A stretch of 42,012 bases of DNA from Saccoglossus kowalevskii (lineage: Eukaryota > Hemichordata > Enteropneusta > Harrimaniidae), in assembly GCF_000003605.2 (NCBI RefSeq), contig NW_003109988.1:171058-213069 (forward strand), read 5' to 3'. A program made the position numbers and the translations under genes. The notes beneath the pieces were generated by a model. That model was given only the letters and a program-made list of their open reading frames with translations, was not told the origin of the DNA and searched no databases. Below, one piece after another: positions 10,006 through 27,285 of this stretch. Each line of letters begins with the position of its first letter. Position 1 is the stretch's first letter.

Positions 10006-13000
10006 TTACTGTTGATCTGGATAATCGAATATAGGTGTTTGGTCATACGGCGTCAGGTAATCCGCTGATGGATGATTCTCCATTGGTACTGACTGCAATA
10101 ACTTTTCTAAATCGCGGACAATTGTGTGAAAATTTGGTCTTTCATTTGGGTCATCTTCCCAGCACTTCTGCATTAATCTATATCTAAAAAAATGTAACAG
10201 TGGATTTCATTATGCACTATATGGTACACTGTTGAGTTGGATATGCGATCTCCCTAGCACATTCAGAAATATGTCCGCCAGCAAGACGTTATATGTAGGG
10301 ATATTGAATTCAAACATTTTGGTTCGTATACAGCCAAAAGCTATCTCTGTACTGTATTTCGATGTTCTAAAGAATATTGTAGCGGAATGAAATCAAATAA
10401 CTTACAGTTCATCCGGGGCATACATGGGTTTCTGAAGCCTGTTTCCTTTATTCAGATAATTCAGTATGTCCCAACTCTGAACAGCACCGTATGGTGTTTC
10501 TCCACGCGTCAACAACTCCCATAATAGTATTCCAAATGCCCACTGTGAAACAACATACATGCACAGTTTATAACTTTCAAAAGATTCACAATTGAGTTGC
10601 TCTTACGTGAATATTTTCGAAAGTTCTCGGTAAATATTCACGGGATAAATACGATAATGCATTCTATTTCAATTTGAAATAACATTGTTACATTAAACAG
10701 GTATTTCGATTTCTTTATTTTCGATATAATTCACTGGGTTAGGTTACACCAACACAATATATAGATTTAGATCCATGGACTATGTCTTACCACATCACTC
10801 TTGCTTGTGTAGATTTTCTTTCGGAAACTTTCAGGAGCCATCCACCTAACTGGTAGCTGGACACTTTTGTCCAAGGATGAATAATAATCACTTTCATAGA
10901 GGTCTCTGGACAATCCAAAGTCTGAAACCTTCACGACTTCCTTTTCATCCACCCTAGGAGAAGTATTATTTGAATTTAGGTACAAATCACAGAGAAACGT
11001 CATGTGAATTGCTCAAATGAAAACTGAATTTGCATTTTTTCAATCCCCAAATAAAAAAAAAAGTGTAAAATTCCCAGAATATTGGCTATTTTGTTATGAA
11101 GTGGCAATAGCTGTTGTAAAATCCCAACAGTTTTTATTTAAATATAATCACAAAAAGATCGACCAAATCGTACCTAAAAATTGTTTTACGCACAATTGCA
11201 TGGGGAAAATGGCATAAAATACGATGTGAAAAGTATAGTCGAGTAGTCGCCATTTCGTTTGAATCGTCAAGGTGATGGAAACCATAGAAAAATATGACGC
11301 ATAATGACCATTATTATGAGAAGTGACACGTATAACCTCAGTGAGACACAATCAGAGCAGGACTTAGATTCTCCAGATGGCTACATGACATTTCGCATGA
11401 CGTAATCAACGATGACGACCTCTTTTTTTCACTTGCAAGTGATTCAATGTACTACGTCGGTATATAGCGTAAATTCTATGCATGACGTAATCCACGACGA
11501 CGACCTCTTTTTTTCACTTGCAAGTGATTCAATGTACTACGTCGGTATATAGCGTAAATTCTATGCTTACAGTGTTCACATTTCGGCGATTGTCGTTACA
11601 AATTTGCACTAATGACAAGGAAATGTTTTTTTTTTCAAATATTAATCAGAGAAAAAAAAAGATCGATAATTACAGCTATTGCTGCTTTAAACAATTTAGG
11701 AACACAGTGCAAGCTCTTTTTCCTGGTCATGGTCAGTCTGTAAGTGTATCTATATATCAACATTGTTTTCCACACGTGTCGAAATCACTTGTCCCCACTT
11801 TGTCTGGAGTGCTCGTACTAACACTCAATAACCATTGACATACATAAACCTCGTGACTGACTCAGTCTGTCCTCCGGGGAGAATATTCCATTATTTGATC
11901 AATTTCAGTTGCAGGTTACAGTTTTGCACAAGGTCACACGAAATAATTAGTATTCTGCTCTGCTCTAAAACTAAAAAAAAAATCCTTGCCATATTAAGTA
12001 CCAATCACAAAACGTTTTATTAAAGTTGTTAACAATATTAGTTCCTTTATCACAAAGTAAGCGACAATATTAATTGACGTTCACTGTATGTAAAACTCCC
12101 AGGTGTCAATATGATAACAAATGATTATTAATAATTATCATACTGTAATGTTACATAACGGAACCATTACATTTACTAATATGTCGTGACAACCATGATA
12201 CATACATGCAATTCCTGGCTGCCAAATCTCGGTGGACACATTTTCTGTCACTGAGATAAGCCATTCCTCTTGCTACGTGCAGGGCATACGTGGCAAGGTT
12301 CTTCACAGAAAACACCTGAAATATAGTTTACATTAGTGTGGAATAAGATACGCATTCGATCTAAGACGGAAATGGCTAAAGAGAATTTGTTGAAAGTCCC
12401 TTCCAAGTGTGTTCCATGCTCTCTGCTATGCGTCCACAGTTGCAATGAGCTAATGTAATCACCATGGCGAGAAGAAATAGAACACCATTTGAAGACGAAA
12501 ACCAGTCTCGCAGTTCTCTCTTGCTAAAATTGTGCATAGTAATGTGACCAATACGTGTTACACCGCCCACACAAATCAGAATGTAAGGCTTACTTTATTT
12601 GGGTTGTCAATGTATGCCTTGAGATCCCCATTCTTCATAAAAGGTAATACAATTAACGGTGCACCGTCTTTCTCGACACAAACACCAATGAGCGACAGAA
12701 CATTTGGATGGTCGAAGTCCTTCATCAGTAAACCTTCTTCAATGAATCGCCGTACATCATTGAGATCCATGTCATCTTGTAAGGCAATAAGATACAAGTC
12801 AGTTGCACAGGAAATACAGAATTTGATTGGATGACAATATTGAGTATTCATTGTACGCAATAACAGTCTAAAACTCATCAACGAAAACATTACAATGTCA
12901 ACAGCTGCGGGCCATGTATACCATGTAGCAAGGATATATGAAGTTACGTGTCAGATCCTACCATAAGTAAGGTGATCACTCGCCGAATTAAACAGCGTCA

Positions 13001-27285: not shown

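Follow-up and report, generated by a model that had tools for sequence, protein, structure and literature searches.

Sema propellers are the ligand-binding heads common to Met and plexins, and a Met-type receptor gene in which this head appears to be missing raises the question of whether the absence is real and, if it is, how such a receptor would have arisen and be activated. A gene of this kind lies on the minus strand of a stretch of 42,012 nucleotides from the hemichordate Saccoglossus kowalevskii (contig NW_003109988.1; hereafter the window). The initial annotation of the window described a Met-like receptor tyrosine kinase in which a signal peptide and Thr/Ser-rich repeats take the place of the Sema head, and proposed that the junction phases agree from the ATG exon to the stop.

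Gene model and family placement

The gene (27285..10006, minus strand) begins with an ATG at 27285-27283, ends with a stop codon at 10006, and comprises 21 exons with a predicted product of 1050 aa. Every intron is GT-AG and every join is phase-consistent, in accordance with the agreement of phases proposed earlier. The predicted order of domains is signal peptide, Thr/Ser-rich stalk, PSI, IPT repeats, a transmembrane segment beginning at residue 669, tyrosine kinase and short tail, and the features are distributed as follows.

27234..27285, minus strand: exon 1, ATG and signal peptide ([17 protein letters not shown]...), with a phase-1 donor and a hydrophobic core
23283..23387, minus strand: exon 2, Thr/Ser-rich stalk unit, phase 1-1 (exon model)
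22629..22730, minus strand: exon 3, stalk unit, phase 1-1 (exon model)
22086..22187, minus strand: exon 4, stalk unit, phase 1-1 (exon model; similarity to exon 2)
20939..21148, no strand: assembly gap (N run) of 210 bases
20903..20938, minus strand: 3' end of an additional stalk exon that begins inside the N gap; outside the 1050-aa model (sequence)
20515..20785, minus strand: exon 5, Thr-rich stalk and then the first half of PSI, a single open exon (exon model)
19473..19572, minus strand: exon 6, second half of PSI and link into IPT1 (exon model)
18687-18530, 18148-18031, 17706-17570, 17294-17124 and 16081-15976, minus strand: exons 7-11, IPT1 to IPT3 (exon model, Pfam, MET alignment)
15142..15477, minus strand: exon 12, IPT3/IPT4, with an RKRR furin-like motif at 15390-15379 (exon model)
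14654..14824, minus strand: exon 13, IPT4 (exon model, paralog comparison)
14163..14400, minus strand: exon 14, end of IPT4, transmembrane segment and start of the juxtamembrane part (exon model)
13452..13577, minus strand: exon 15, juxtamembrane part (exon model)
13223-13134, 12775-12594, 12315-12206, 10953-10791, 10542-10406 and 10183-10006, minus strand: exons 16-21, tyrosine kinase and short tail with YLTPYD (exon model, Pfam, PDB)

An alternative join of exons 13 and 14 has a weaker acceptor and was rejected; the chosen join (14654/14400, phase 0) agrees with a paralog described below, whose exon likewise ends ...HVM. An exon start at 21183, ahead of the N gap, was also discarded, as its reading phase clashes, by eye, with the neighbouring exons.

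Pfam profiles run on the model reported a kinase (6.6e-91), TIG in three stretches (1.3e-16), a single PSI (1.6e-05) and no Sema, and PSI as assembled across exons 5 and 6 scored 2.5e-07 with all eight of its cysteines in place. Our reading of the exons together with the alignment to MET suggests four IPT units, compared with the three TIG stretches of Pfam. Among solved structures, the kinase is closest to MET (5.3e-90), followed by RON (9.3e-82) and MER (3.1e-75); the single row ranked above MET was set aside, because the chain in question contains two EGFR kinases and tops the list only by the sum of its copies (157 bits each). The PSI-IPT part has MET as its best match (4.1e-22), with plexins next, and aligns with MET 520-806. 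The Met/Ron layout of kinase, membrane region, IPT and PSI that had been recognized in the letters thus holds at the level of both profiles and structures. The motifs [21 protein letters not shown] and DYY are kept, and we take these to be the catalytic motifs and the paired activation-loop tyrosines. A furin cleavage site inside Sema, which is a Met/Ron trait, is absent from a model that has no Sema, and the RKRR in exon 12 is the only R-x-K/R-R motif in the whole model.

A decaying pseudogene is a highly improbable explanation for this locus. By eye, a broken copy of the start of exon 11 is seen upstream of the real one, at about 16310-16260 (minus strand), as decay might leave behind, but all 21 exons are open and in phase, the splice sites are intact, and the kinase motifs have been kept despite divergence to 57% identity with the paralog. 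The gene is probably a real, working receptor tyrosine kinase of the Met family.

In the surrounding sequence, plus-strand ORFs at 33126-37352 belong to a likely head-to-head neighbour. Their translations give weak matches to EGF-like repeats, which stay under the Pfam cut-offs, along with a hydrophobic segment and a long tail that contains tyrosine motifs. ORFs at 38590-42008 and 2-451 (both plus strand) look retrotransposon-like by eye; the Pfam scan of window ORFs gave weak endonuclease matches (0.0023 and 0.0041, ORF unspecified) and 0 families for 2-451. A VPS13 C-terminal match (2.2e-18) probably stems, by eye, from 832-1104 (plus strand). In the mitochondrial sequence, cox1 and nad1 are on opposite strands; both read with TGA as Trp, and AAA falls at conserved Lys positions, a pattern at odds with an echinoderm.

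A Sema-bearing paralog and the search for Sema

Comparison with other Met loci of the same genome, as had been suggested with the initial annotation, identified a Met gene on C3462 (loci L053-L054, about 310438-324909, minus strand) that keeps three Sema exons along with matching downstream exons. One exon of this paralog carries the ATG, the signal peptide and most of Sema, and is followed by two further Sema exons, PSI, IPT repeats and kinase.

C3462:323193-323002, minus strand: Sema exon 2 of the paralog (exon search)
C3462:319457-319326, minus strand: Sema exon 3 of the paralog (exon search)

For the third Sema exon, a strict splice search was empty and a relaxed one gave 13 candidates, of which one was picked by eye; this choice was borne out by the alignment of the joined Sema with plexin A. 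In PDB, the main Sema exon matched plexin A (1.7e-12) and MET (1.7e-06 to 1.7e-05), and the three Sema exons joined with the start of PSI aligned to plexin A from residue 41 to the end of the query (1.2e-20). Since the joined query drew plexins only (15 rows at E<=0.01, with no MET), the Sema of the paralog is closer to those of plexins than to that of human MET.

From PSI on, most exons of the two genes agree in phase and length. Counterparts of window exons 6-20 were sought in the paralog by a search that itself fixed phase and length class, and 12 of the 15 were found, two of them (exons 8 and 16) with low scores and judged by eye; no counterpart was recovered for exons 6, 7 and 14. Exon lengths are identical in both genes for six exons by the top candidate (9, 10, 13, 17, 19 and 20), and for a seventh, exon 18, with the second-ranked candidate. 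The PSI intron has the same phase in both genes. The kinases share 57.4% identity, and in a five-sequence tree (LG+G4) the window gene and the paralog group together with a modest ultrafast bootstrap of 85. Drawn from the kinase identity, the tree and the exon match, these comparisons suggest that the duplication is old and that it is the 5' end that differs, the three Sema exons and a signal peptide within a Sema exon being found only in the paralog. As to the R-x-K/R-R motifs, the RNRR of the paralog sits in the IPT3/4 exon, the same exon as the RKRR of the window gene, and none occurs in the paralog Sema.

Is Sema then truly missing from the window? The profile search that had been suggested gave a divided answer: Pfam indeed reports no Sema, but the same scan gives 0 families in the real Sema exon of the paralog, so that its silence is not proof. 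On the minus strand, the scan took in every ORF with an end above 19500, a length of 45 aa or more and fewer than 5 unknown residues (85 of 85). Of 63 further ORFs with 70 aa or more it covered 41, the other 22 lying inside the span of the gene on either strand, and the families among these 41 are given as the 25 commonest of 37. A Met-type Sema exon matched by plexin and MET structures thus goes undetected with the current Pfam Sema model (PF01403, 182 positions).

The three joined Sema exons of the paralog provided a probe of 458 aa, which found no counterpart in the window, either among 1388 six-frame ORFs of at least 20 aa (phmmer; best E 1.5, a plus-strand ORF) or by tblastn (best E 1.0). 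As a control, 11 of 13 other modelled exons of the paralog ranked their true counterpart first in the same phmmer search, with values such as 0.0014 for a PSI piece of 39 residues and a weak 0.094 for the juxtamembrane exon. Two of the 13 control exons went unrecognized, so this search could also overlook an exon that is short and diverged. The longest minus-strand ORF lying wholly above 21200, upstream of the stalk, has 119 aa, compared with 405 aa for the ORF of the main Sema exon in the paralog. The claim that the Sema head is missing is thus upheld, and an upstream Sema exon hidden in 23388-30697, which would have overturned it, was not detected in the window by this probe.

A Sema head might still be encoded past the end of the contig or in sequence missing from the assembly, the stalk then being an insert between Sema and PSI or part of an alternative isoform. 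The contig ends at the right end of the window (42012), 14.7 kb upstream of exon 1, the N gap covers part of one more stalk exon, and use of an AG within exon 5 could in theory trim the Thr-rich part. This explanation is nevertheless unlikely, as the stalk is preceded by a signal-peptide exon whose phase fits, and the opposite-strand ORFs at 33126-37352 look like another gene. In addition, the main Sema exon of the paralog (335 aa query), used to probe the genome for a second copy, returned only itself at E<=1, and in the paralog the signal peptide is inside the Sema exon itself. We consider it very likely, on the basis of the exon model and these searches, that the gene encodes a Met-type receptor with a stalk and without Sema.

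The new 5' end and its origin

Exon 1, 3.8 kb from exon 2, is supported by its ATG, hydrophobic core and in-phase donor. The core value (2.87) is the highest among 11 candidate first exons with a right-phase donor, three of which passed the core test. The runner-up uses an in-frame ATG at 23415, just 5' of exon 2 (core 2.85), and this possible alternative start would likewise yield a Sema-less protein.

Stalk exons 2, 3 and 4 and the gap-cut exon (20903..20938) are copies of one unit that arose as local tandem duplicates. Over 533 bases around exons 2 and 4, introns included, the identity is 84% (92.2% for the exons, 88.1% and 84.2% for the flanks), and the gap-cut exon is 85-88% identical to the remaining units. 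A search of the genome (572 Mb, E<=10) with the stalk unit gave four matches and no convincing one outside the gene, three being its own exons and the fourth, on C2222 (E 1.86), being noise with four stop codons. The stalk has 170 residues in repeated units, 43.5% of them Ser and Thr (48.2% counting Pro), and no cysteine, a composition that suggests an extended, O-glycosylated arm. In exon 5 the Thr-rich coding continues unbroken until no more than four residues before the first cysteine of PSI, and the counterpart position in the paralog is, according to the plexin alignment, the last Sema strand. The signal-peptide exon 1 and stalk exons 2-5 stand in place of the Sema head, as first described.

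The explanation that we prefer, with a probability of roughly 0.7, is that the gene is an old duplicate of the Sema-bearing Met gene of this animal in which the 5' end was replaced. The start codon, the signal peptide and all three Sema exons would have been swapped out, replacement being the direction of change that we infer, and a new signal-peptide exon, no fewer than four small Thr/Ser-rich exons that were duplicated locally and a Thr-rich extension of the PSI exon would have been swapped in.

Activation and relation to known receptors

The stalk is predicted to be O-glycosylated and extended. A receptor without Sema would lack an HGF-beta-type docking site, and its kinase may be turned on by trans-phosphorylation once receptors are brought together, either by a partner on the stalk glycans or on the PSI/IPT repeats, or through association with the Sema-bearing Met. 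Antibodies at PSI-IPT1 or IPT4 of MET are reported to activate MET, and dimerization by itself is described as insufficient for full activation of human MET (PMC5344273). A different ligand or drive by clustering, as raised in the initial annotation, is plausible. We propose activation by clustering only tentatively; in our ranking, clustering via the stalk or PSI/IPT comes first, and basal activity and an HGF-like ligand come next.

In human MET, the HGF beta chain binds Sema, and a second contact, of the HGF alpha chain, has been proposed in IPT 2-3 (PMC5344273). Because HGF contacts have been proposed in the IPT repeats of MET, binding of an HGF-like ligand need not vanish without Sema, and such a ligand might still be bound through these repeats, with only affinity or partner choice differing from Met. 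The alignment of the PSI-IPT part with MET is in line with this, but it is the Sema contact that is called mandatory for ligand-induced activation (PMC5344273), and we regard an HGF-like ligand as improbable.

Met-family products without Sema are already on record as short-form RON, sf-Stk and a MET isoform whose existence in liver cancer has been inferred (PMC9956929, PMC3185572, PMC8803206). Short-form RON without the extracellular domain is reported to be constitutively active (PMC9956929) and mouse sf-Stk is without most of the extracellular domain (PMC3185572), so a ligand-independent, basally active receptor set by its expression level could be envisaged here, the kinase motifs being present. 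We think this rather unlikely, as the gene retains PSI, IPT and a signal peptide and gains a stalk, which is hard to explain without an extracellular partner; moreover, sf-Stk is described as activated by a viral envelope partner (PMC3185572). The short forms are also reported to come from alternative starts or promoters of full-length genes, whereas the stalk and secretion signal of the window gene belong to the architecture of the gene itself.

Met (MET/HGFR and the invertebrate Met receptors; PMC6374515) has PSI, IPT, transmembrane segment and Met-type kinase in common with the window gene, but the latter has a Thr/Ser-rich stalk instead of Sema, and its furin-like motif lies in IPT3/4, compared with Sema in Met. 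Similarly, Met-LP, a Met-like kinase on a complete plexin ectodomain, resembles it in the Met-type kinase and the plexin-like ectodomain, but is described with Sema, three PSI-IPT units and additional IPT (PMC6374515), in contrast to no Sema and one PSI here. A further Met-like receptor tyrosine kinase is SVH-2 of Caenorhabditis elegans, which has been called a Met homolog (PMC7984584, PMC5161311). As no Met is reported from Ecdysozoa in a survey based on Sema (PMC6374515), SVH-2 may lack Sema too, in which case a Sema-less relative of Met is known already. That survey of Met receptors across animals sought Sema-containing proteins and reports Met and Met-LP (PMC6374515), so that Sema-less Met-type receptors could have been missed. 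Among the literature matches listed, no title or abstract described a natural gene for a Sema-less Met receptor, which does not establish its absence from print.

A third Met-type gene of the same genome appears to carry cadherin repeats, as judged from ordered ORFs on C2687 (loci L057-L058, about 1198-6063, plus strand) that encode cadherin repeats (Pfam 1.2e-12 in one ORF, 0.002 in another) and then a Met-type kinase. This kinase, joined with a piece missing, matches MET (4.3e-81) better than RON (2e-74), both below the two-kinase EGFR chain. It is conceivable, at somewhat less than even odds, that the Met kinase is an exchangeable module, found with a Sema head, with a mucin-like stalk and new signal peptide, and with cadherin repeats, in one gene each. 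If so, three distinct types of extracellular contact would drive the Met pathway. A Sema-less Met-type receptor beside its Sema-bearing paralog would allow the capacities of PSI, IPT and kinase alone to be tested directly.
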